Source of the DNA: Terriglobia bacterium
Lineage (GTDB): Bacteria; Acidobacteriota; Terriglobia; JAIQFV01
Reading direction: 5' to 3'
Assembly (NCBI GenBank): GCA_028716525.1
Contig: JAQUPQ010000034.1
Span: 1-43,931 of the forward strand
Length of the DNA stretch: 43,931 bases
Notes under the pieces: model-generated
What the model was told of the DNA's origin: nothing
Databases searched by the model: none
Seen by the model: the letters and a program-made list of their open reading frames with translations, nothing else
Made by a program: the position numbers and the translations under genes
Shown here: one piece after another, positions 1 to 40,817 of the stretch
Numbering within the stretch: the stretch's first letter is position 1
Layout: the number at the start of each line of letters is the position of its first letter

Positions 1-21
1 CTGGCGGTCGAAATTGTCGAG

Positions 22-462
22 GCGCCTGTAGCTCAGGTGGATAGAGTCCCCCGCGGGGGACCTTCTAAGCAGAGTATTGAATAGAACGATCGAAAACTGA
101 AAAACGATTCCGTTCGCTCTGTTTCTTACTGAAATTTTTGAGACATGTTCGACGGATTGCTGTGAGACGCGCCTGTAGCTCAGGTGGATAGAGTCCCCCA
201 CGGGGGACCTCCTAAGCAGAGGATTGAACAGGACAATCAAAAACTGAAAGACGATTCCGTTCGCTCTGTTTCTTACTGAAGTTTTTGAGACATGTTCGAC
301 GGATTGCTGTGAGACGCGCCTGTAGCTCAGGTGGATAGAGTCCCCCACGGGGGACCTTCTAAGCAGAGGATTGAATAGAACGATCGAAAACTGAAAAACG
401 ATTCCGTTCGCTCTGTTTCTTACTGAAGTTTTTGAGACATGTTCGACGGATTGCTGTGAGAC
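22..462 (+). repeat. Three tandem 147-bp repeats with broken tRNA-Arg 5' halves
   Basis: Three direct repeats begin at 22, 169 and 316, with a fixed period of 147 bp, and the intact tRNA begins one period later at 463. Each unit opens with the acceptor 5' strand and D-arm of the downstream tRNA-Arg(TCT). The 5' anticodon-stem strand is then replaced by the palindrome GTCCCCCRCGGGGGAC. The anticodon-loop part CTTCTAAGCAG follows, and the 3' half of the tRNA is missing. The rest of each unit is a nearly identical spacer of about 95 bp, the same sequence that lies directly upstream of the intact tRNA. The units therefore look like duplications of tRNA plus upstream region, not an independent repeat family. 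Confidence 0.93.
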
Positions 463-539
463 GCGCCTGTAGCTCAGGTGGATAGAGCATCTGCCTTCTA
501 AGCAGGAGGTCGCCCGTTCGAGTCGGGCCAGGCGCGCCA
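463..539 (+). tRNA. tRNA-Arg (anticodon TCT)
   Basis: A full 77-nt cloverleaf can be folded. The acceptor is GCGCCTG/CAGGCGC, the D-stem GCTC/GAGC, the anticodon stem TCTGC/GCAGG around loop CTTCTAA, and the T-arm GCCCG-TTCGAGT-CGGGC. A CCA end is encoded. The anticodon TCT reads AGA/AGG arginine codons. Broken copies of its 5' half lie upstream and copies of its 3' half lie at 8.9 and 10.5 kb, so this gene appears to have been the attachment site of an island. Confidence 0.97.
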
Positions 540-585
540 ATTCTTTCAATACGTTGTGCGGCTTTTTTCATTCCTGAAAAATCCA

Positions 586-2753: not shown

Positions 2754-2984
2754 ATGCCCTTTCCACCCACCCTCCAGGACTTGTATCCGCATTACACGCC
2801 TCAGCAGTTGCAGGCAGCCGAAGAAAATCTGCTGGCATATTTGGCCGTGGTCATGCGCATTTACGAGGGAATCCAGGCTGATCCGGCAAAGTACGCGGAA
2901 TTTCTGCGTTTGACAAATCAGAACCCATCTTTTAAGGTGCAGGGTGCCAAAAGCTTACCTTCCTTAACTTCCGCAAAACCATGA
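2754..2984 (+). CDS. Small protein of 76 residues coupled to the serine recombinase
   Basis: The frame starts MPFPPTLQDLYPHYTP and continues with helical segments (LQAAEENLLAYLAVVMRIYE, then DPAKYAEFLRLT). Its TGA stop overlaps the ATG of the recombinase (ATGA), so the two are translationally coupled. I chose the ATG at 2754 because a GGTGA lies 5 nt upstream; an ATG at 2742 would add four residues. From memory, short proteins with this LYP/AEENL/RIYE pattern are common upstream of large serine recombinases and resolvases, but I cannot name a defined family. A role as accessory factor for the recombinase is inferred from coupling only. Confidence 0.62.
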   Translation: MPFPPTLQDLYPHYTPQQLQAAEENLLAYLAVVMRIYEGIQADPAKYAEFLRLTNQNPSFKVQGAKSLPSLTSAKP

Positions 2985-4537
2985 AATCTCCAGTATATTT
3001 CGGATATATCCGCGTCTCCACTGCCAAGCAGGGAGAGCACGGGGTGTCCCTGCAGGAACAGCGCGCCGCGATCGAGCGTTACGCCCAGCACAATCAGTTT
3101 CCTATTTCCCAATGGTTTGAGGAACGGCAGACTGCGGCCAAGCGCGGCCGCTCCGGGTTTACCCGCATGCTCAAACTCCTGCGCTCAGGCAAAGCTCAAG
3201 GCGTCATCATCCACAAGATTGACCGCAGTGCCAGGAACCTCAAAGACTGGGCGGATCTCGGGGAACTCATTGACCAAGGTATTGAAGTCCGTTTTGCCAA
3301 CGAGAGTCTGGACTTGCATTCCCGCGGTGGCCGGTTGTCTGCTGACATTCAGGCTGTAGTGGCTGCGGACTTCATCAGAAACCTCCGGGAAGAAACCAAG
3401 AAAGGGATTTACGGGCGCTTGAAACAAGGCCTGTATCCGCGCCCAGCGCCTTTGGGCTATGTAGACCAAGGCCAGGGCCGACCCAAAGCCCTGGATGCCA
3501 CCTTAGGGCCGGTGGTGCGGCAGGTGTTTGAGCTTTACGCTTCTGGCCAATATACCTTGTTGGCTTTGCAGGACAAGGCCTATGCCATTGGCCTGCGGAA
3601 CCGCAACGGTAGGCGCGTCAGTTTTACTGGTTTGTCCTCCCTTTTGCATAACCCCTTCTACATGGGGCTCATCCGCATTCAGCGCACCGGAGAAACCTTT
3701 CCCGGGATTCATTCGCCGCTCATCAGCAAATCCCTGTTTGACCGGGTGCAAGATATGCTCCAAGGCCGCACCCGTGCCAAAACCCAAAAGTATGCCTTTG
3801 TGTTTCGTAAACTGTTTCGCTGCAAGTTCTGCGATTATGCGGTGGTGGGGGAAACCCACAAGGGCCATGTCTATTACCGCTGCCATACCAGAAATTGCCA
3901 AACCAAATATTTTACCGAAAGCGCCATTGAGAACGCGGTCCTGGCGCACATCTCTCCGCTGCAGCTGAATGCCGCAGAGCTGGCTTATCTGGAAAGCAAA
4001 ATCACGACCCTGCGGACGCATTGGACCAGCGAGAAGCATGTCCAAACCCAGGCCTTACAGTTGCGCCTGGGAAAACTACAGGAGCGCTTAGCCCGCCTCA
4101 CTGATGCGTATTTGGATCAAGCTCTGGAGAAGGATTTGTTTGAGGAAAGAAAAACCGCGCTTCTGATGGAGCGCAAGGACGTGGAAGAATCATTGGCCAA
4201 GGTGGAGGATGTAAACCGGTCAATCCCAGACGAGCTCACGGAATTCCTCGAACTCCTGAAATCCGCACCATTACAATACAAACTGGCAAACCCAGACCAA
4301 AAGCGGGAACTTCTGCAAACACTGACATCGAACCGGCAGGTGGCCGGCAAAAACGTGGAACTGGTGCTGAAATTGCCGCTCGCGGAGATTGCCAAGCGGC
4401 AAAAAATTCTAGATGGTGACCCATCTCATGGCCTGGCTCTTGTTTGGGATCCGTTGTTTGAACGGCTGGTTAGGATTTTCTCCGAAGCTAGAATGGGACT
4501 CAAAAATGCTCACTCTGATTCAAGTTTAGCACCTTAA
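2981..4537 (+). CDS. Large serine recombinase (resolvase/invertase superfamily)
   Basis: The protein has 518 residues. The N-terminal catalytic resolvase domain (about 1-150) carries YIRVSTAKQ with the nucleophile at Ser13 and the SLQEQ and DRSARN blocks. A recombinase DNA-binding domain follows (about 160-270). A zinc ribbon comes next with Cys281, Cys284, Cys301 and Cys306, and then a long helical, probably coiled-coil, region (about 320-430). Such enzymes cut and rejoin DNA at att sites through a 5'-phosphoserine link and serve as integrases of phages and mobile elements. The gene overlaps the small upstream gene by 4 bp. A paralogous C-terminal remnant lies 160 bp downstream (4700-4795), so more than one such element has passed here. 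Its length is normal and no frame damage is seen, so it may be active. Confidence 0.92.
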   Translation: MKSPVYFGYIRVSTAKQGEHGVSLQEQRAAIERYAQHNQFPISQWFEERQTAAKRGRSGFTRMLKLLRSGKAQGVIIHKIDRSARNLKDWADLGELIDQGIEVRFANESLDLHSRGGRLSADIQAVVAADFIRNLREETKKGIYGRLKQGLYPRPAPLGYVDQGQGRPKALDATLGPVVRQVFELYASGQYTLLALQDKAYAIGLRNRNGRRVSFTGLSSLLHNPFYMGLIRIQRTGETFPGIHSPLISKSLFDRVQDMLQGRTRAKTQKYAFVFRKLFRCKFCDYAVVGETHKGHVYYRCHTRNCQTKYFTESAIENAVLAHISPLQLNAAELAYLESKITTLRTHWTSEKHVQTQALQLRLGKLQERLARLTDAYLDQALEKDLFEERKTALLMERKDVEESLAKVEDVNRSIPDELTEFLELLKSAPLQYKLANPDQKRELLQTLTSNRQVAGKNVELVLKLPLAEIAKRQKILDGDPSHGLALVWDPLFERLVRIFSEARMGLKNAHSDSSLAP

Positions 4538-4699: not shown

Positions 4700-4795
4700 A
4701 GTCCATCTCAGGGCGTGGCTCTTGCTTGGGATCCGCTGTTTGAAAGATTAGTAAGGATATTTTCCCTGGGGGGAGAATATGAATGGGAGTGCTAG
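4700..4795 (+). pseudogene. Remnant C-terminus of a second serine recombinase
   Basis: The frame reads SPSQGVALAWDPLFERLVRI followed by FSLGGEYEWEC and a stop. It closely matches the last part of the intact recombinase (DPSHGLALVWDPLFERLVRI, then FSEARMG). No start codon or upstream domain is present, so this is the leftover end of a related gene. Deletion by recombination between two recombinase genes, or insertion of one element beside an older one, would leave such a fragment. Confidence 0.8.
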
Positions 4796-4831: not shown

Positions 4832-5575
4832 TCAGAGTCGTTTTGCCAGTTCTTCATATGCTGTAATGACATAAGGCATCTGAGGAAGAATTGTGCTCAT
4901 TTCTACATCCACAAGCGGGTTGTGGGCAGCGGTGTCGCCGAGAAACTTTATGCCCTTAATCTCATTCGCGGTTTTTGGCACCAAGAATGGAACACCGTGC
5001 AGTTTCTCCCGAGCCGCGGTTTCGATCATGTCCTTCAGGCCAATCCATCCGCCAGGTCGATTTTTTGCCTCTAGTAGATGCCCTTTGCCATTTTTAGTAA
5101 TCACAATAATAATGAGTTTTTCGAGGATTTTTCTCAGAAGAAATGCTGTACAGTTTCCGTTCTTCCCAAAGTTGCCTTGCAACTCTTCGAGTTCTCGACC
5201 GAAGTTTTTCTTCAAACGACCCATTAGCTTCTCGGAGAAGAGCTCCTCCTCAATCTCTCGGACTTTTTTTTTCTTCCCGATCGACCTCAGGGCTTCCTCT
5301 CTCTTCACGCTTGAAATGACCCAATAGTTGCCTCTATGGCCTGACAGCTTGATACCTTGTACAATATCAGCCCGCAAGAACTTCTGCATATAAGTCTGCA
5401 CATGATTCGTCTTCCATCGCTTTCCAAATCTATCCCTCAACCTCGATACGACTTCTTCACTTGAAATGGGAGAGTCAAAGGAACCATCAAGAATCAACTT
5501 TTGCAGCAGAGCGTATCGACTATTCGGGTCGATGGCTAAATTCCGCGCCCTTTCTTTGATGGATTTACCAGACAT
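4832..5575 (-). CDS. Winged-helix-like protein fused to a DUF4145/HEPN-like domain
   Basis: The protein has 247 residues from the ATG at 5575; a TTG at 5599 would add eight. The N-terminal part (about 15-95) has the same pattern as the three smaller proteins encoded upstream: LLQKLILDGSF, a middle helix (EEVVSRLRDRF), then FLRADIVQGIKLSGHRGNYW, like a winged helix with a basic wing. A Lys-rich linker follows. The C-terminal half (about 130-247) is helical, with CTAFLLRKILEKLIIIVI and IKGIKFLGDTAAHNP, which resembles DUF4145-type HEPN-related domains in its AAHNP box. The canonical HEPN RNase motif (Rx4-6H) is not clearly present, so RNase activity cannot be claimed. The start overlaps the preceding gene by 11 bp, marking it as the last gene of a four-gene operon. 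DNA binding and a defence or regulatory role are inferences. Confidence 0.62.
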   Translation of the reverse strand: MSGKSIKERARNLAIDPNSRYALLQKLILDGSFDSPISSEEVVSRLRDRFGKRWKTNHVQTYMQKFLRADIVQGIKLSGHRGNYWVISSVKREEALRSIGKKKKVREIEEELFSEKLMGRLKKNFGRELEELQGNFGKNGNCTAFLLRKILEKLIIIVITKNGKGHLLEAKNRPGGWIGLKDMIETAAREKLHGVPFLVPKTANEIKGIKFLGDTAAHNPLVDVEMSTILPQMPYVITAYEELAKRL

Positions 5576-5912
5576 ATGCAGCCTGCTTCTTCTTTCCAAT
5601 TACCTTCGAGCTTTTTCGCAGCTGTTTACGCCTCTGAAGGCGTAAAAGGGCCATCGCAACCCGATTAGCATCGCATGGGTAGACAGATTGTAACTTTGCA
5701 TGGACCTCATTGGAGGTCTTGGCTTGCTTAAAAAAGCCTTCCTCTCTTAATCGAAGAATATGGCCCGGCAAGGTCTTTGCTGAAGCTCCCTTGGCCGCGG
5801 GCTTGCGGCTAGTTTTCTGGCGCCCATTACCCCGCCCGCCTATCTCCTTCAAAGATTCTTGAACGAGCGCCTGGATTTGCTGGAGTTTTACAATAAGCGT
5901 TTTCTTGTCCAT
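5565..5912 (-). CDS. Small winged-helix-like paralog C (115 residues)
   Basis: It begins with an amphipathic helix (LIVKLQQIQALVQESLKEI, about 5-23), followed by a Gly/Lys/Ser-rich linker. The C-terminal domain of about 70 residues contains ILRLREEGFF, an NEVHAKLQSV helix and a basic end (LLRLQRRKQLRKSS). The order and spacing match the paralogs at 5960 and 6316 and the N-terminal half of the protein at 4832. It overlaps the next gene by 11 bp and follows paralog B by 47 bp. No Shine-Dalgarno is obvious, which fits translational coupling. The predicted role is DNA binding, with the N-terminal helix for oligomerisation; no family name can be given. Confidence 0.6.
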   Translation of the reverse strand: MDKKTLIVKLQQIQALVQESLKEIGGRGNGRQKTSRKPAAKGASAKTLPGHILRLREEGFFKQAKTSNEVHAKLQSVYPCDANRVAMALLRLQRRKQLRKSSKVIGKKKQAAYVW

Positions 5913-5959
5913 AAGTTTATGGCTTTCTTAATTGATGTAAAAGGATTGAAATGTGAGCC

Positions 5960-6310
5960 TCATTTACGGAGGGCATACTTCCATTTCTTGTCGCCTTTAT
6001 CACGAAACCTCGTAAGCACTCTTTCCCGCACCAAATTCAATAATCCCATGGACACAGTTGGTCTGGAGTAGTGCCTTCCATCTTGCCGCAAGAGTTCAAT
6101 AATTTCTGGCAACTGCTTCGGAGAGTTGAGTTTCCCTTCGTCGGCTAATAGCCTGATGCCCCCGGTAGCGCCAGAAGGTTCTTTTTTCACAACAGCAGAA
6201 AATGGTTTCTTTGAGGCGTGGCCAGCCTCGACACGCGCACCCGCAATATGCGCAAGTTCAGAAACTAAAGCCATGATTTGTTCTGCAATTTTTTTCGGAT
6301 CTTTTTTCAT
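5960..6310 (-). CDS. Small winged-helix-like paralog B (116 residues)
   Basis: An N-terminal helix (KKIAEQIMALVSELAHIAG) and a short linker lead to a C-terminal domain of about 65 residues. That domain contains IRLLADEGKLNSP, LPEIIELLRQDGRHYSRP and LLNLVRERVLTRFRDKG, ending KKWKYALRK. The segment HYSRPTVSMGLLNLVRERVL resembles a winged-helix recognition helix followed by the wing strands. The start lies 5 nt after the stop of paralog A, so the two are almost certainly co-translated. The function is unknown beyond likely nucleic-acid binding. Confidence 0.62.
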   Translation of the reverse strand: MKKDPKKIAEQIMALVSELAHIAGARVEAGHASKKPFSAVVKKEPSGATGGIRLLADEGKLNSPKQLPEIIELLRQDGRHYSRPTVSMGLLNLVRERVLTRFRDKGDKKWKYALRK

Positions 6311-6315
6311 ATTCG

Positions 6316-6672
6316 CTATTTGGTCATCTTAAAATATTTGTAATGCCCTTTTCCTCCAGGCTTCTCGCGATAAAGTATCCTCTTGCGAACGAGAAACCGC
6401 AAAGGTTTCATCAGCGTTGTGGATGGTTTATTTATCGCCCTCTGGTGGAGTTTGTTTACAATTTCTGAAATTTCTCTTCCTCCTTTAAAATAATCTTCCT
6501 GGACCAAGGAAACAATCTCCGCAGTCAGGCCAGAAAATTTTCCAGTGATTCCGTCATGTGAAGTTTTGGCCTTTGATTTTCTCTTCACTTCACCCCGATC
6601 GATACTCAAACACTCTTTCAGTTCCTGCAAAAGGGTCTCGATCTCTTGGATTATTTCAAAGCGTTTATCCAT
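6316..6672 (-). CDS. Small winged-helix-like paralog A (118 residues), first gene of operon
   Basis: This is the promoter-proximal member of the four-gene set. The N-terminal leucine/isoleucine-rich helix (IIQEIETLLQELKECL) could form a coiled coil. It is followed by a Lys-rich linker (VKRKSKAKTS) and a C-terminal domain with IVSLVQEDYFKGG, ISEIVNKLHQR and LRFLVRKRILYREK, ending KGHYKYFKMTK. The nearly consensus promoter at 6729-6758 lies about 50 nt upstream of its start codon. The operon looks more A/T-rich than the permease array, which fits acquisition with the tRNA-anchored island. Confidence 0.62.
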   Translation of the reverse strand: MDKRFEIIQEIETLLQELKECLSIDRGEVKRKSKAKTSHDGITGKFSGLTAEIVSLVQEDYFKGGREISEIVNKLHQRAINKPSTTLMKPLRFLVRKRILYREKPGGKGHYKYFKMTK

Positions 6673-6728
6673 ATGATTTAATCTCTATTTTATTACCAAT
6701 TAGAATTTCTAGTGTCTAACTACGCTTA

Positions 6729-6758
6729 ATTATAAGCAAATAGCGGATATTCTGTCAA
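6729..6758 (-). promoter_or_regulatory. Consensus sigma-70 promoter of the four-gene winged-helix operon
   Basis: On the minus strand TTGACA (6753-6758) and TATAAT (6729-6734) are both perfect hexamers with an 18-bp spacer. Transcription would start near 6721, about 50 nt before the first gene. The -35 region TTGACAGAATAT is shared with the SorC-type gene promoter. Confidence 0.82.
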
Positions 6759-7232: not shown

Positions 7233-8618
7233 ATGAGCTTGGTACTTCCTCCCGACGTCGCTCGCATCTCAAGGCTGCGCTTTAACGCGCTGGCTGGTTA
7301 CAGCCGCAAGCCGAGTACCGAGTTATTTGCCGGTGAGATATCCTGGTATGAGCATAAGCGGGCACCCGTCCTTGGGGCACTGATTATCGTTTTCACGGAC
7401 GAAGATTTCGGTGGAATCATCATGGGTCGCGATGAAGGTCGTCGGATGAGATGTGTCGACGTGGTCGGATGGTACGATTCTCCTGAACAAGCGGAGATAG
7501 GGTTGATCGCGAGGCTCGAAAATTGGGCAAAGCGCCCGCTTGCAGATATGGAGCAAGGCGGCAGGCAATATCCATTTGTCGATATGTTTACACCGATAGT
7601 TCAACCCGCGAAAATGAGCACGGCCTTCGCGAGACTGCTCAATGCTGAAGGCTTCTCGTGCGGTCGAGGCATAATCGAAGCAATGATGCCCTATTTTGAA
7701 GATGTCGACAGCAATTTTGTCGAGCAATTCCAAAGCACCGGGTTCGATTCACGGATCTGGGAGCTGTATCTTTTTGCCCTTCTGACCGAAGGCGGGTATG
7801 TCTTTGACCGTCAATTTCAAGCTCCGGACTTCTTTTGCAACGGTATTTCACAGCAAATTTTCGTGGAAGCAGTAACAGTTAATCCTACGCGAAACGGCAA
7901 CATCATCACGGAACCACCGGTACCCGAAGACAAGCAGGAGCTTGTCGCCTATTTCAAGCAGTACATGCCTATCAAATGGGGCAGCGCACTGACCGGCAAG
8001 TTGCGTAAGGAGTATTGGGCATTGCCTCACGTTCAGGGAAAGCCCATCGTCTTTGCCATTCAAGATTTCCACGCTGACAGATCCATGACGTTCACGAATT
8101 CAACATTGAGCCCATATTTGTATGGCCTGGAGTTTGCTGCTTACTACGATGCGGATGGAAATCTTCAGGTGAGCGGGACGCCAATTCAAGAACATAGATG
8201 GGGAGATAAGTGCATTGAGTCCGGATTTTTCCGCCTGCCGAATTCTGAGATGATCAGTGGGGTCATTCAGAACCCAACCGCGACGATTTCAAAATTCAAT
8301 CGGATGGGGCATCTAGCCGGCTTTGGGAGCAAGGCAGTGCGCATGCTGAAGGCAGGCACGGCCTACGACCCCGATCCCAATGCGGCTCTTCCGAGGGAGT
8401 ACTTGCAAGATGTGAACAGCGAAGGATATCGAGAGACGTGGAGCGAGGGTCTAAATATATTTCACAACCCCAATGCCCGGTATCCCCTGGATAACTCCTT
8501 TTTCCCTCAGTGCATGAATCATCGGTTGATAAACAATCAGGTTGTGCATAACATCCCTGAATTCCATCCATTCACCGCGGAGACCTTCATTTTGAGTCCG
8601 AAGCGCACTGAAAATTAG
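7233..8618 (+). CDS. Uncharacterised 461-residue protein, possible nuclease-like core
   Basis: This long frame starts MSLVLPPDVARISRLRF and has no signal peptide or membrane segment, so a cytoplasmic protein is likely. I recall similar proteins annotated only as hypothetical. Conserved-looking stretches are APDFFCNGI, FVEAVTVNP, YMPIKWGSALTGKL, FAIQDFHA, EHRWGDK, TISKFNRMG and ETWSEGLNIFHNPNARYPLD. A Glu in a helix (IWELYLFALL, about 171-180), a PD pair (APDFF, about 192-196) and FVEAV (about 206-210) follow the order of a PD-(D/E)xK nuclease core. The expected Lys after the last Glu is missing (EAV), so catalysis is uncertain. It stands alone on the plus strand near the right end of the island. 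The start codon has only a weak ribosome site. Confidence 0.7.
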   Translation: MSLVLPPDVARISRLRFNALAGYSRKPSTELFAGEISWYEHKRAPVLGALIIVFTDEDFGGIIMGRDEGRRMRCVDVVGWYDSPEQAEIGLIARLENWAKRPLADMEQGGRQYPFVDMFTPIVQPAKMSTAFARLLNAEGFSCGRGIIEAMMPYFEDVDSNFVEQFQSTGFDSRIWELYLFALLTEGGYVFDRQFQAPDFFCNGISQQIFVEAVTVNPTRNGNIITEPPVPEDKQELVAYFKQYMPIKWGSALTGKLRKEYWALPHVQGKPIVFAIQDFHADRSMTFTNSTLSPYLYGLEFAAYYDADGNLQVSGTPIQEHRWGDKCIESGFFRLPNSEMISGVIQNPTATISKFNRMGHLAGFGSKAVRMLKAGTAYDPDPNAALPREYLQDVNSEGYRETWSEGLNIFHNPNARYPLDNSFFPQCMNHRLINNQVVHNIPEFHPFTAETFILSPKRTEN

Positions 8619-8829
8619 TGCTCGAGCCCGTGTCTTTCACCAAGACCTCAACTGCAAAGAGGATATCTACTACTTACCTCTGGCCGCGTGAGAAAATGAG
8701 CATGGCCTACAATCAGATTCTCCCTGTGATCTTCGATACGGTTCATTTGGCTGTAGTCGATTTTGTAGCTGTCGAACGCCACACGGTGCAATAAAATTCA
8801 ACAAATTTCCATAAGCATGCCACAACGGC
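8619..8829. other. Intergenic stretch before the right-end repeat
   Basis: Apart from the 18-bp repeat at 8751-8768, no gene, palindrome or promoter is recognisable here. Confidence 0.5.
8751..8768. repeat. 18-bp direct repeat near the right island end
   Basis: This is the second exact copy of CTGTAGTCGATTTTGTAG, in the same orientation as the copy at 586-603. Confidence 0.7.
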
Positions 8830-8926
8830 TTGCATCAGAAAGCCTTGTTTTTCGGCCATTTTCTGGTATTTTTGTCACCGCCTTCTAAGCAGGAGGTCGC
8901 GCGTTCGAGTCGCGCCAGGCGCGCCA
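8830..8926 (+). repeat. Island right-end repeat with tRNA-Arg 3' fragment (att-like, copy 1)
   Basis: About 49 bp starting TTGCATCAGAAAGCC lead directly into the 3' part of tRNA-Arg, from the anticodon loop to CCA (8880-8926, beginning GCCTTCTAAGCAGG). The T-arm still pairs (GCGCG/CGCGC). The same composite recurs at 10444-10539. A tRNA 3' fragment starting at the anticodon loop is the usual scar where an integrated element has duplicated its tRNA target. Confidence 0.75.
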
Positions 8927-9038
8927 AATTTGTGCCTTTTCCCCCATAGTTATCTTGATCGCCCGCATTTCTGGCGGGGTCGACCAGTTGCAGAGAAATT
9001 GAAGATGGAAGTTCGTAGCGTCCCGAAGAGAATCAATA

Positions 9039-9123
9039 TCGCCTGTAGCTCAGGTGGATAGAGTCCCCCACGGGGGACCTTCTAAGCAGGAGGTCGCGCG
9101 TTCGAGTCGCGCCTGGCGCACCA
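9039..9123 (+). pseudogene. tRNA-Arg(TCT) pseudogene with inserted palindrome
   Basis: This is an 85-nt relative of the tRNA at 463. It keeps the D-arm, CTTCTAA loop, T-arm (GCGCG-TTCGAGT-CGCGC) and CCA. The 5' anticodon-stem strand is replaced by GTCCCCCACGGGGGAC, exactly as in the repeats at 22-462. The acceptor has mismatches at positions 1/72 and 6/67, and the D-stem has lost a base. It should not fold as a working tRNA. Confidence 0.75.
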
Positions 9124-9187
9124 AATTTTTGAAGCCCTCGGAAGCTTTTTACGAATTCCCCGAAATTTCCATTTCATCAATTCCGTC

Positions 9188-9860
9188 GTTCTTGATATCC
9201 CTTCTGGATCAAGATTGGGTTCGGGTAGCGATGCCAAGTCCCCCGCGGGGGACGCAGGCAGCGGCTTTTAGCCTGTCTGCAAAAAGCCAGCTTCGTTATG
9301 GGGGTCAAGATGTCGTATTTGCCAATTGGGGTTGAGCGCTGGTGACGCCAACATCGGATTCTTCAAGATAAGATTCTTAGAACTCCCGCGAGATTAGATT
9401 GCCCTTTCAGGGCAAGTAATCAAACGGGCTTTTCAGACCCAGGGCGATGCCCTGGGCTATTGAAGCTTGCCCCTGCGGGACAATTGCTGGATCCGCTAAC
9501 GCAATATCGTCAATTTGGCCGTTGTTGATTTCCCTTCTGGATCAAGATTGGCTTTTGGTAGCGATGCCAAGTCCCCTGCGGGGGACGCAGGCAGCGGCTT
9601 TTAGCCTCCCTGCAAAAGGCCAGCTTCCTTATGCGGGTTAGGATGTCGCATTTGCCATTTGGGCGTGGGCGATGGTGGCGCTGACATCGAATTCTTCAAG
9701 ATACGATTCTTGGATGGCCCTTTCAGGGCAAGAAATCAAACAGGATCTTCATACCCAGGGCGCTGCCCTGGGCTATTGAAGCTTGCCCCTGCGGGGCAAT
9801 TGCTGGATTCGCCAACCCAATATCGTCAATTTGGTCGTTGTTGATATCCTTTCTGGATCA
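9188..9860. repeat. Tandem non-coding repeat of about 335 and 315 bp
   Basis: Units begin at about 9191, 9527 and 9841 with TTGATATCCCTTCTGGATCA or close variants. Each of the first two carries the palindrome GTCCCC(C/T)GCGGGGGAC, and the units also contain GCCCTTTCAGGGC, CCCAGGGCGCTGCCCTGGG and TTGCCCCTGCGGGGCAA type palindromes. The third unit is truncated. Frames through this stretch have no ribosome sites and change with the repeats, so I see no gene. Confidence 0.8.
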
Positions 9861-9879
9861 AGATTGAGTTCTGGCTGGG

Positions 9880-10440
9880 TGGCGCACACATGAGTTCTTA
9901 GCATGTGTGCGGATGCCGGAGTGAGCATTACATTTTCTGGTAGCCGGGATCCCGCAGAGCGGGATCCCGGACCACGAAAGGAAAATGAAATATTGGCGGG
10001 GTGGTGTCGTTGATTTTTCTTAGCTGCCGCAGTGCGGCACAAAAGGGTAGCCTAGCGTGTGGGCCCCGAATATGAGGAGCCCACACGCCAGGGCATAATC
10101 AGCCACAAACAATTCTTGTCTCTGGCCGCCCTGACAGGGCGGCCAGAGATTATTATTGTCATTGGGGGACGCATTTTGTCCTTGGGTTGCAGGACCTGAT
10201 AGAACTCGGCCCCTTAACCCAAGGCTACTACCTCTTGCCGCTCCGCGGCATGTGCGCGGACGGTTTGATGAGAGCAAATTGAATTCCAAGCGAAAGAGTT
10301 TGTGCTGTTTACTGCACACATCGAAAAAACCACGATGTGTGTGCGAACCCGCCATATCACGGTCTCCTTTCGGTAACCTGTAATATGAGGCAACGATCCC
10401 TTCTCGCTACCTTTTTCGGTAAGCTTTAATGTGAGTCAAT
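9880..10440. repeat. Cluster of REP-like palindromes
   Basis: Successive inverted repeats are visible: GCACACATG...CATGTGTGC near 9880-9910, GATCCCGC-agaGCGGGATC near 9948-9967, GCCGCAGTGCGGC near 10023-10036, GTGTGGGC...GCCCACAC near 10059-10087, and TCTGGCCGCC...GGCGGCCAGA near 10120-10147. There is no convincing coding frame. This resembles the palindrome-rich intergenic DNA seen upstream of the last two permease genes. Confidence 0.65.
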
Positions 10441-10443
10441 TCG

Positions 10444-10539
10444 TTGCATCAGAAAGCCTTGTTTTTCGGCCATTTTCTGGTATTTTGGTCACTGCCTTCT
10501 AAGCAGGGGTCGCCGGTTCGAGTTGGACCAGGCGCGCCA
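10444..10539 (+). repeat. Island right-end repeat with tRNA-Arg 3' fragment (att-like, copy 2)
   Basis: This is nearly identical to 8830-8926. The same leading segment ends in GGTCAC and then the tRNA-Arg 3' part (10492-10539). One base of the variable loop is lost and the T-stem is damaged (GCCGG/TGGAC), so this copy is the more decayed. Two such copies suggest two successive integrations at the tRNA. Confidence 0.72.
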
Positions 10540-10734
10540 AATCTACAGTTCATGTTTTTGGCAAACCCGAATGTTCAGGATCAAGACCATCAGCGCCATT
10601 CGCAATGCTCCTCTGACGCAGATTTAAGACCTTCGTGCTGTGCTCCGCTGAAGTTTCCTCTGTACGAGGCGTTTGCAACCGTATCAATCTGACAGAACCT
10701 CTTGGGGCATGATTCTTTCTTGTTTTTCATTCCA

Positions 10735-38186: not shown

Positions 38187-40817
38187 TCACTCATACCGCA
38201 ACGCCACCATGGGATCGACTTTCGTCGCGCGACGTGCGGGCACATAGCTGGCCAAAAGAACGATGGCAGCCAATAGCGCCGTCACGAGGACGAACACAGC
38301 AGGATCGGCGGTGCTGACTCCAAAAAGAAAACCCCGAAGTAAGCGCGTCAAGGCCAAGGCCACGGGCACTCCAATCAGAATGCCGATTCCGGCTATTCTC
38401 AATCCTTGGCCGAGCACCATAGAGAACACCGCGCTCCGAGACGCACCTAGCGCCATCCGCAGACCGATCTCATGCGTGCGTTGGGTGACCGCGTAGGCGA
38501 CCACGCCATAGACGCCCACGGATACGAGCAGCAGTGCCAACGCGGCGAATGACGACATCAACAACGCGCTGAGACGTTGGTCGACGGTGGAGTTGTCCAA
38601 CATCCACTTCATGGTGTGGACGCCCGAAATGGGCTGCTCACTGTCCAGCATCGCGACTCCTCGGCGAACCTCCGAGAGGACCGCGCCGACCGGCATGGTC
38701 GTTCGCAGCACAAACCAAGCAAAGTAATCCGACTCCTGAGCCATGGGGATGTATAACGCCGGCTCGGCCGGTCGGTCGAGCGTGTCGTGGCGGACATTGC
38801 CTACGACGCCGACAATGATTCGAGGGGGCGCGTGGGGCCCCGTGTGCGTCAGAACTTTTCCGATGGGATCTTCACCGGGGAAAAACCGGCGCGCAAATTC
38901 CTGACTGATGACGATCACCGGTGGAGAATCGCGGCCATCACGAAGATTGAATTCACGTCCCTGAATCAATGGAATACCCATCGTCTGGAAAAAGCCCGGT
39001 GTGACGAAGTCCTTTCTCGCTTGCGGTCGATTGCTGGAATCGTCGAGAGTCTTACCTTGAATCAAGAAGGTGGAGCGCATGCTGTCACCGCTTTCCGGCA
39101 GCGTGCTGGTGGCGGCGGCGGATGTCATGCCGGGCATTGAAGCCAGCCGATCCAGCAAACGGAGAAAAAAATCTCCCGGCAATGCGCCGGCCGCTCCTCG
39201 ACTATCTGCCCTCGAAACGCTGAAAACCACCCGGCCCTCGGGAACAAAACCGGGGTCGACGGCCCTCAAACGCAGAAAGCTCCGCATCAGCAATCCACCA
39301 CCGGCGAGAAGCACCAAGGAAATAGCAATCTCACCGGCGACCAACAACGTGCGGGCACGCCGCGCAGAGACCCTGCTCCCGGCGACCTGCTGACGAAGCG
39401 ATTCATCCGGAGACGTCCCCGCGGCGTGAAGAGCCGGCAAGAGCCCTGAGAGTAGCGCGGTCGCCAAGGACAAAAGGACCGCAAAGGAGAGCACTTGAGG
39501 ATCCAGTCGAATCGCGAAGCCCCGGGGTAGGAATTGAGCAGCGACCACGCTGAGCAGATCGATGGTCCAGCCCGCAAGGGCTATTCCGACGGTGCCGCCC
39601 AAAACCGCTAACAACAGCGCCTCCATAAGCCACTGTGAAAGCAGACGGGCACGAGAAGCGCCGAGTGCGGCGCGTATGGCGAACTCTCCCTGGCGAATGC
39701 TGGCCCGCGCCAGGAGAAGACTCGAGAGATTGGCGCACGCGATCAGTAGGACAAAGCCGACTGCTCCAAGAAGCACGAGCAACGCCGCACGAATATCGCC
39801 TACAAGACTGTCATGCAATCCGTACAGTCGGAATCCCCAAAGACCGGTATCGGCAGTATGCGTCGAAGCGAGACGCGAGGCAATCGTGTCCATCTCGACC
39901 TGCGCCTGGCTGAGGGAGATCTGTGGCTGCAGACGGCCGACGCAGCTTAACCAGTTCGAGCCGCGCTCGGTGAGTAGATCGCGGTCTGTCACGGTCTGGT
40001 TGAGGGATGCCCAGAGTTCCACTCCGGCAGGGAAGTCGAAGCCAGGCGGCATCACACCGATCACCGTTGCCGGAATGCGGTCCAGCCGGATCTGGCGGCC
40101 CGCGATGTGTGCATCACCTCCGAAGTATCGTTGCCAAAGCGCATAGCTGATCACAACGCCGGGCTCGATGGAACGATCATCTGAAAGCGTGGAGGAGCCG
40201 ACGAGCGCCCGCGCCTCCAATACATCAAAGAAAGCGGGCGTGACGACAACCGCCCGAAGTCGTTCGGGACGACGACCGCCGATGTTCATGGCCCAGTTGG
40301 AATAAGCGGCAAGCTGGTCGAAACTATTGGCCTGGTCGCGAATGCTCACGAAATCCGGGTAAGACAACGGGTTGTGGTAGACATTTAGGGCAGGGTTAGC
40401 ACCAAACAATGCGACCAGTCGATCGGAATGCACAAACGGCAACGGTCGCAGCAGCACCGAATATATGGCACTGAAGATCGCGGTGTTGGCGCCGATTCCG
40501 AGCGCTAGTGTGAGAACCGCAACCGCGGCAAAACCCGGCGATTTTCGCAACATGCGCGCACCGAAACGAAGGTCTTGCCAGAGGGCTTCGAGAAACGGCA
40601 AGCCACGGCGCTCCCGATATCTTTCTTTGGCTTGCTCCACACCACCAAGTTTGATGAGGGCTTGCCGCCGCGCCTCTTCCGGTGTCATCCCGGCCCGTAG
40701 GTTGTCATTGATGTGCATCTGAAGATGACTGTTGAGCTCTTGGCCGATGTCGTGGTCGGGTCGTTCTCCTCGGAACAAATTAATGACTCGAATGAACCAT
40801 GCTCGAAGTTGTCTCAT
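38187..40817 (-). CDS. ADOP-type permease 10 with N-terminal prefix domain (first in array)
   Basis: This protein has 876 residues from the ATG at 40817 (GAGGG 8 nt upstream). The prefix domain (about 1-75) is almost identical to that of permease 9. The first periplasmic module contains VTPAFFDVLEARALVG, and the first FtsX block has ACANLSSLLLARASIRQGEF. The second module has QEFARRFFPGEDPIGKVL, and the last block has AYAVTQRTHEIGLRMALGAS, ending TKVDPMVALRYE. It is the copy nearest the PadR gene, 486 bp downstream of it on the same strand, so it is the best candidate for PadR control. Confidence 0.9.
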   Translation of the reverse strand: MRQLRAWFIRVINLFRGERPDHDIGQELNSHLQMHINDNLRAGMTPEEARRQALIKLGGVEQAKERYRERRGLPFLEALWQDLRFGARMLRKSPGFAAVAVLTLALGIGANTAIFSAIYSVLLRPLPFVHSDRLVALFGANPALNVYHNPLSYPDFVSIRDQANSFDQLAAYSNWAMNIGGRRPERLRAVVVTPAFFDVLEARALVGSSTLSDDRSIEPGVVISYALWQRYFGGDAHIAGRQIRLDRIPATVIGVMPPGFDFPAGVELWASLNQTVTDRDLLTERGSNWLSCVGRLQPQISLSQAQVEMDTIASRLASTHTADTGLWGFRLYGLHDSLVGDIRAALLVLLGAVGFVLLIACANLSSLLLARASIRQGEFAIRAALGASRARLLSQWLMEALLLAVLGGTVGIALAGWTIDLLSVVAAQFLPRGFAIRLDPQVLSFAVLLSLATALLSGLLPALHAAGTSPDESLRQQVAGSRVSARRARTLLVAGEIAISLVLLAGGGLLMRSFLRLRAVDPGFVPEGRVVFSVSRADSRGAAGALPGDFFLRLLDRLASMPGMTSAAATSTLPESGDSMRSTFLIQGKTLDDSSNRPQARKDFVTPGFFQTMGIPLIQGREFNLRDGRDSPPVIVISQEFARRFFPGEDPIGKVLTHTGPHAPPRIIVGVVGNVRHDTLDRPAEPALYIPMAQESDYFAWFVLRTTMPVGAVLSEVRRGVAMLDSEQPISGVHTMKWMLDNSTVDQRLSALLMSSFAALALLLVSVGVYGVVAYAVTQRTHEIGLRMALGASRSAVFSMVLGQGLRIAGIGILIGVPVALALTRLLRGFLFGVSTADPAVFVLVTALLAAIVLLASYVPARRATKVDPMVALRYE

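Follow-up and report, generated by a model that had tools for sequence, protein, structure and literature searches.

A serial winged-helix operon ending in a winged-helix/HEPN-like fusion on a Terriglobia genomic island: a candidate modular conflict system

Four minus-strand genes at positions 4832-6758 of a 43,931-nucleotide stretch of Terriglobia DNA (the window, by which we mean the whole stretch that was analysed) raise the question of why several small winged-helix proteins should be encoded one after another in front of a larger fusion protein, and whether the set could form a regulated complex, perhaps for defence, as the initial annotation had suggested. An ORF check of the window confirmed the four genes, here called P1 to P4, and the elements of the operon are as follows.

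6729 to 6758, minus strand: sigma-70 promoter TTGACA-18-TATAAT, 12 of 12 positions as in the consensus, top-ranked of the 5 sites in this region
6316 to 6672, minus strand: P1, 118 aa
5960 to 6310, minus strand: P2, 116 aa
5565 to 5912, minus strand: P3, 115 aa
4832 to 5575, minus strand: P4, 247 aa from the ATG at 5573-5575

The promoter had been described as perfect, and both hexamers indeed match the consensus at every position, with the -35 TTGACA at 6758-6753, a spacer of 18 nt and a TATAAT that ends at 6729, 57 nt upstream of P1. The overlaps or short gaps claimed between the genes were measured as a gap of 5 nt between P1 and P2, a gap of 47 nt between P2 and P3 and an overlap of 11 nt between P3 and P4. 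A 19-nt imperfect inverted match (84%) was seen between the promoter spacer at 6732-6750 (CGCTATTTGC) and the P1/P2 junction at 6309-6327 (CAAATAGCG); it could be an autoregulatory operator, but in the scan it did not rise above the chance level.

P1 consists of an N-terminal helix, a basic linker and a C-terminal winged helix (residues ~50-113), and P2 and P3 follow the same plan. All three are basic, with a predicted pI of 9.9-11.0 (9.88 for P1). They had been read as winged-helix paralogs of 115-118 residues, which agrees with the lengths of the ORFs, with their mutual BLASTP matches (P1/P3 E 1e-7, P1/P2 E 2e-6, P2/P3 E 0.005) and with the profile matches given below. The closest relative of P2 is a 106-aa gene of genome G366 (BLASTP E 2e-12), and the winged helix of P3 resembles, in a residue-by-residue comparison, the 111-aa and 113-aa genes of genomes G548 and G543. 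P4 was said to carry the same domain, and it showed no pairwise similarity to P1-P3 in a BLASTP-type test (E 0.17), so that its winged helix was accepted only after a test with a held-out profile. This profile was built from other genomes, with zero window proteins, and was scanned against 191 window ORFs. It recognised P1 (E 4.1e-14, 45.9 bits), P2 (E 2e-15, 49.8 bits), P3 (E 1.8e-18, 59.8 bits) and, most weakly, P4 (E 2.7e-5, 17.7 bits). The best of 500 shuffles of each protein reached 8.8, 6.4, 10.9 and 7.2 bits, respectively, every real score being higher, and none of the remaining ORFs scored below E 0.3, the next best being 0.33. Judged from sequence, a winged helix common to P1, P2, P3 and P4 thus holds. 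Weak matches to Pfam CARD_2 and Penicillinase_R and to NCBIfam RecX were set aside as due to chance or to a generic resemblance among winged helices.

In P4 the winged helix is N-terminal (residues ~20-90) and is followed by a DUF4145-like HEPN domain (residues ~116-247) with a GDTAAHNP box. P4 itself did not match DUF4145 (PF13643) in a Pfam search, and its homologues L047 (E 3.5e-4, 21.0 bits), L061 (E 0.0044, 17.5 bits) and L048 (E 0.24, 11.9 bits) all score under the gathering cut-off of 23.1 bits. A held-out DUF4145-type profile made from L061, L062 and L047, with P4 and L048 left out, matched P4 at residues 141-245 (E 3.3e-7). The AF2 model of P4 had a pLDDT of 37 from the single sequence versus 73 from an alignment of five homologues; it starts with a winged-helix-like part of three helices and a two-stranded wing at low confidence (50-65) and continues into a confident helical bundle (pLDDT ~80-93). 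With VIA-align, residues ~116-245 of the model were placed on HEPN folds, the rows being mostly HEPN at Z ~8-10.6, a range that helical bundles can also reach by chance. Among these were 2hsb (Z 10.4), the MntA-HepT complex 6m6u (Z 10.0) and 7ae8 (Z 9.6), and the best row was the ROQ domain of RC3H2 (Z 10.6), which is level with the rows of ordinary HEPN proteins and extends over the HEPN part alone. Foldseek also gave HEPN toxins as its top rows, with E values no better than 0.03. Because nearly every top row is HEPN and the sequence profile agrees, residues ~116-245 of P4 are predicted to adopt a HEPN fold. The DUF4145-like fusion therefore stands on its relatives' sub-cut-off matches, the held-out profile and the structural matches, and the check for unrelated folds returned the folds that had been proposed, a winged helix and, in the P4 model, HEPN.

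The HEPN RNase motif Rx4-6H is absent from P4, which reads KGIKFLGDTAAH216 with no arginine 5-7 residues before His216 (numbering of the 245-residue model); Gly211 and Asp212 stand where toxins of the 7ae8 type have an arginine at H-5. His216 and an upstream Arg146 are invariant across five proteins of the P4 group. Since the arginine before the histidine is missing, P4 may not be an RNase, and its sequence is compatible with a non-canonical enzyme or with no enzyme.

As to whether the genes occur together elsewhere, a profile of P1-P3 gave one solid match among 396 genomes of the phylum, in G366 (E 5.8e-6). There the 106-aa relative of P2 precedes a 154-aa ORF (147 aa if read from an internal ATG) that matches P3 in its N-terminal helix (E 9e-6) and differs in its C-terminal half. 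Next comes a protein of 261 aa that carries the motif NRGGRH and was assigned to a HEPN-type family whose members end in a winged-helix-like part. When this HEPN protein was used as bait in 84,980 species genomes, seven loci were found; wherever sufficient sequence was present upstream, small genes of N-terminal module, linker and winged helix lay before or beside the HEPN gene here too. The bait supplies a second, independent route to small winged-helix-like neighbours, which supports the association. A winged-helix profile rebuilt from five sequences matched 15 of 299 genomes of the class, and searching the whole phylum again with the final profile added no genome. Small genes were present in 13 of the 14 matched class genomes other than that of the window, the 14th, G602, having a NYN-domain protein with a weakly related winged helix. 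The gene adjoining them is a supported HEPN or PLD-like effector in 11 of these 13, a count that includes the broken DUF4145-like frame of G499; of the other two, G718 has a 244-aa alpha protein at the effector place and G673 reaches the contig end. Assignment of the G718 protein (L056) to HEPN was not supported (profile E 0.018). In G499 (L050:7300-8636) a small winged-helix gene precedes the frameshifted DUF4145-like gene, either a decayed copy or a sequencing error.

The full four-gene set recurs in G536, where three small genes, all matching the winged-helix profile, lie ahead of a same-strand gene for a 247-aa protein with 69% identity to P4 over 242 residues. The wider plan of small winged-helix genes with an effector extends to ~18 further bacterial genomes; the small genes vary widely, and at other loci several of those in the flanks were classed as winged-helix solely by eye. 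The gene-neighbourhood search that had been suggested as a check was thus carried out and returned both the four-gene set and its variants. P4 itself is sparse (1 of 396 phylum genomes), and direct searches with P4 and with P1-P3 gave no solid match among plasmids, phages, viral contigs or genome contigs. Weak first matches in G232 (L004, a Fur-type protein) and G150 (L005) were unrelated or of low complexity.

The last gene of the operon is the part that changes. DUF4145 HEPN effectors were found in the window, in G536, G652 and G149 and on contig C28 of the window's own genome, and NRxxxH HEPN effectors at loci L008, L013, L016-L020, L049, L051, L052 and L055, the assignment of the latter family to HEPN resting on weak Pfam HEPN similarity (E 0.06-0.09) and the motif. 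When a profile of the NRxxxH family was made from eight loci, it picked up L051, L052, L055 and the protein L014 of an archaeal plasmid (E 1e-30 to 2e-22) but missed P4. Membership of P4 in the NRxxxH family was therefore rejected, and two distinct HEPN-type families occupy this operon position. Loci L020, L018 and L017 each have three small genes and then an NRxxxH-type HEPN protein, the profile confirming 2, 1 and 0 of the three small genes, respectively, and the others being called by eye. In G543 and G548, three profile-matched small genes are followed by a 257-aa protein (235 aa where the contig stretch is cut) with a PLD-like half, in which HxRx4D was seen by eye and PADLOC PDC-S05 matched with E 2e-12 (L046); a further PDC-S05 match (E 1.2e-31) lies near L018. 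The number of small partners among the relatives varies from one to three and so does the gene order, with L019 having a small gene after the effector. On C28 (L061, ~38470-39770) a two-gene relative of the operon consists of a 192-aa ORF with a beta-type N-terminus that overlaps a 244-aa winged-helix-like/DUF4145 fusion, and G149 (L062) has the same gene pair. In G074 (L013), a serial winged-helix/HEPN operon is directly followed, at 8546-10292, by a 279-aa winged-helix-like and HEPN-like protein (RNGCGHP, an Rx4H-type motif by eye) and then by a TIR-TM gene (PADLOC E 6.5e-61). This exchange at one operon position supports the description of P4 as an effector-like fusion.

Two further observations concern outlying relatives. 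G602 encodes two NYN-domain proteins (PIN-like RNase fold; L035 and L041), 522-526 aa long, in which a winged helix of weak relationship lies near residues 430-480; they are possibly another effector type. On the Natronomonas pharaonis plasmid PL131 (L014, 5980-6852), a haloarchaeal NRxxxH HEPN relative lies near an ISH6-like transposase, which suggests that this family extends to archaea.

The output is exchanged while the small genes are retained, as is typical of effector-swapping conflict systems. We lean towards reading the operon as one form of a modular conflict system that spreads by horizontal transfer and is probably directed against phages or other elements. P1-P3 would be small nucleic-acid-binding or adaptor subunits, each with an N-terminal assembly module, a basic linker and a winged helix, and the N-terminal modules may be shuffled between winged-helix types. 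The small subunits would recognise nucleic acid or each other, and P4, made together with them, could dock into the same assembly through its own winged helix. Foreign nucleic acid, or a disturbance of the assembly, might then be the trigger, and the last gene would give the output, the HEPN domain of P4 acting on RNA or halting the cell. We infer the physical complex, its sensing role, the RNase or other output and the benefit against phages from this pattern, and the regulated complex and defence role first proposed for the locus have the same standing. More tentatively, we suggest an as yet unnamed immune-system class, bacterial and possibly archaeal (L014). Its sensor assembly would be built from one to three small winged-helix subunits, whose N-terminal modules can be exchanged, and would control a winged-helix-tagged effector that is itself exchangeable (HEPN, PLD-like, possibly TIR or NYN). 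Should this plan be borne out, present detection libraries overlook a defence or conflict architecture whose parts are too small and divergent to annotate. It would be a further way of linking the recognition of nucleic acid to a toxic output with no evident ATPase or nucleotide signal, and it would lend itself to direct tests, since effectors are exchanged while the winged-helix scaffold stays constant.

A toxin-antitoxin-like module, with P4 as a HEPN toxin, the small winged-helix proteins as antitoxins or autorepressors and no dedicated sensing of an invader, would account for small basic genes of DNA-binding type that precede a HEPN gene and overlap it translationally, and HEPN toxins are among the best structural matches of P4. 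The HEPN-MNT pairs (7ae8; MntA-HepT, 6m6u) share the HEPN fold and the small operon with the window locus, but the latter has no Rx4H motif and three winged-helix proteins in place of MNT, and no Pfam nucleotidyltransferase match was found in the operon. The presence of three different small partners rather than one, the varying number and order of partners among the relatives, including the gene after the effector in L019, and the missing catalytic arginine all speak against such a module, and we consider it unlikely.

Still less probable, in our view, is a regulatory or RNA-binding complex without enzymatic output, in which the HEPN domain would be a scaffold or RNA-binding surface, as in the ROQ region of Roquin (HEPN and winged helix), and the operon would control island or host genes. 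The missing arginine, the basic character of all the operon proteins and the RC3H2 ROQ row, which we treat as a lead, are in line with it; however, that row is tied and partial, the histidine is invariant in the P4 group, and a catalytic output is favoured by the PLD-like or Arg/His-pair HEPN proteins that other loci have in this operon position.

For the modular conflict system that we prefer, comparison with known systems gave likenesses in parts. No named system had been recognised at first sight, and none emerged from the searches: no PADLOC family matched P1-P4, up to E 5, none of the four was above the cut-off in PHROGs, Pfam or NCBIfam, and serial winged-helix genes with an exchangeable HEPN/PLD effector were not found described in a literature search that covered open-access journal papers. 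The DUF4145 HEPN family (PF13643) is the closest in kind, given the HEPN fold of the P4 model, the scores of its relatives and the conserved histidine, whereas the homologues of P4 stay under the gathering score and P4 has no canonical arginine. The family has been linked to restriction, Abi and other conflict genes (Anantharaman et al. 2013, PMC3710099), and a winged-helix fusion like P4 with three upstream paralogues was not found in the passages of that paper that were consulted. BREX BrxA/PglW offers a conceptual parallel, three HTH/winged-helix units serving as a composite DNA-binding device in a defence system (PMC12839542), but P1-P3 are individual small polypeptides instead of a single chain, sequence matches were not found, and no BREX genes were found with P1-P4 (no PADLOC match). 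A PDC-S05-like PLD domain serves as the effector in G543/G548 and TIR-TM adjoins the G074 locus, and both are absent from the window operon. Membership of modular HEPN-type conflict systems is most likely; such systems and effector swapping are already known, and the serial winged-helix arrangement with an exchangeable effector is new as far as tested.

The surroundings of the operon have the marks of an island, as had been supposed, with the following features.

463 to 539, plus strand: tRNA-Arg(TCT), left side of the island, with 3'-end copies at 8881-8934, 9078-9131 and 10494-10547
586 to 603 and 8751 to 8768, plus strand: 18-bp direct repeat CTGTAGTCGATTTTGTAG, enclosing a regulator, the recombinase, the operon and PD-T7-1
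2981 to 4537, plus strand: large serine recombinase (Pfam Resolvase 8e-29, Recombinase 1e-13, Zn ribbon 3e-7)
4703 to 4765, plus strand: 83% copy of the recombinase 3' end (4421-4483), a direct repeat between recombinase and operon
7233 to 8618, plus strand: PD-T7-1 homologue, 461 aa, divergent neighbour (PADLOC PDLC04073, E 4.7e-168)

PD-T7-1 was identified by experiment as an anti-phage gene (Vassallo et al. 2022, PMC9519451), and with the clear homologue at 7233-8618 the island has at least one defence gene of an experimentally known type; this homologue is a neighbour of the operon but forms a separate divergent transcription unit, apparently outside it. The operon has a GC content of 45% against 55% outside it, and operon GC was lower than flank GC in 18 of 18 measurable loci, the difference being up to 15 points and, in two, <1 point. 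The neighbouring defence genes, the low GC and the sparse distribution agree with a conflict system. Ordinary transcription factors of a mobile island, controlling its excision or maintenance and placed beside PD-T7-1 by chance, would fit the winged helices and the nearby recombinase and repeats but are very improbable, as the same set occurs elsewhere nearly always with an effector-like gene and several relatives had no recombinase noticed in the stretch examined, which suggests conservation apart from the mobile element.

The doubled 3' end of the recombinase looks like the result of a second element, itself carrying a recombinase, inserting into the end of an older one. Additionally, three tandem tRNA-Arg-like copies with a 147-bp period and an altered anticodon region (GAGTCCCCCGCGGGGGACC) lie before the intact tRNA-Arg(TCT) (window 1-547), and another altered-anticodon copy lies at 9040-9117; we read the tRNA-Arg copies as repeated insertion or decay at one tRNA. 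Direct repeats at 683-787 and 2542-2646, 1859 bp apart, flank a regulator gene with a sugar-binding domain (DeoR/LsrR-like), possibly another small inserted unit. Farther along the window, at 13110-40850, ~ten large tandem permease genes on the minus strand share the same N-terminal motif, the one tested being MacB_PCD/FtsX; they resemble the duplicated orphan permeases known from Acidobacteria.
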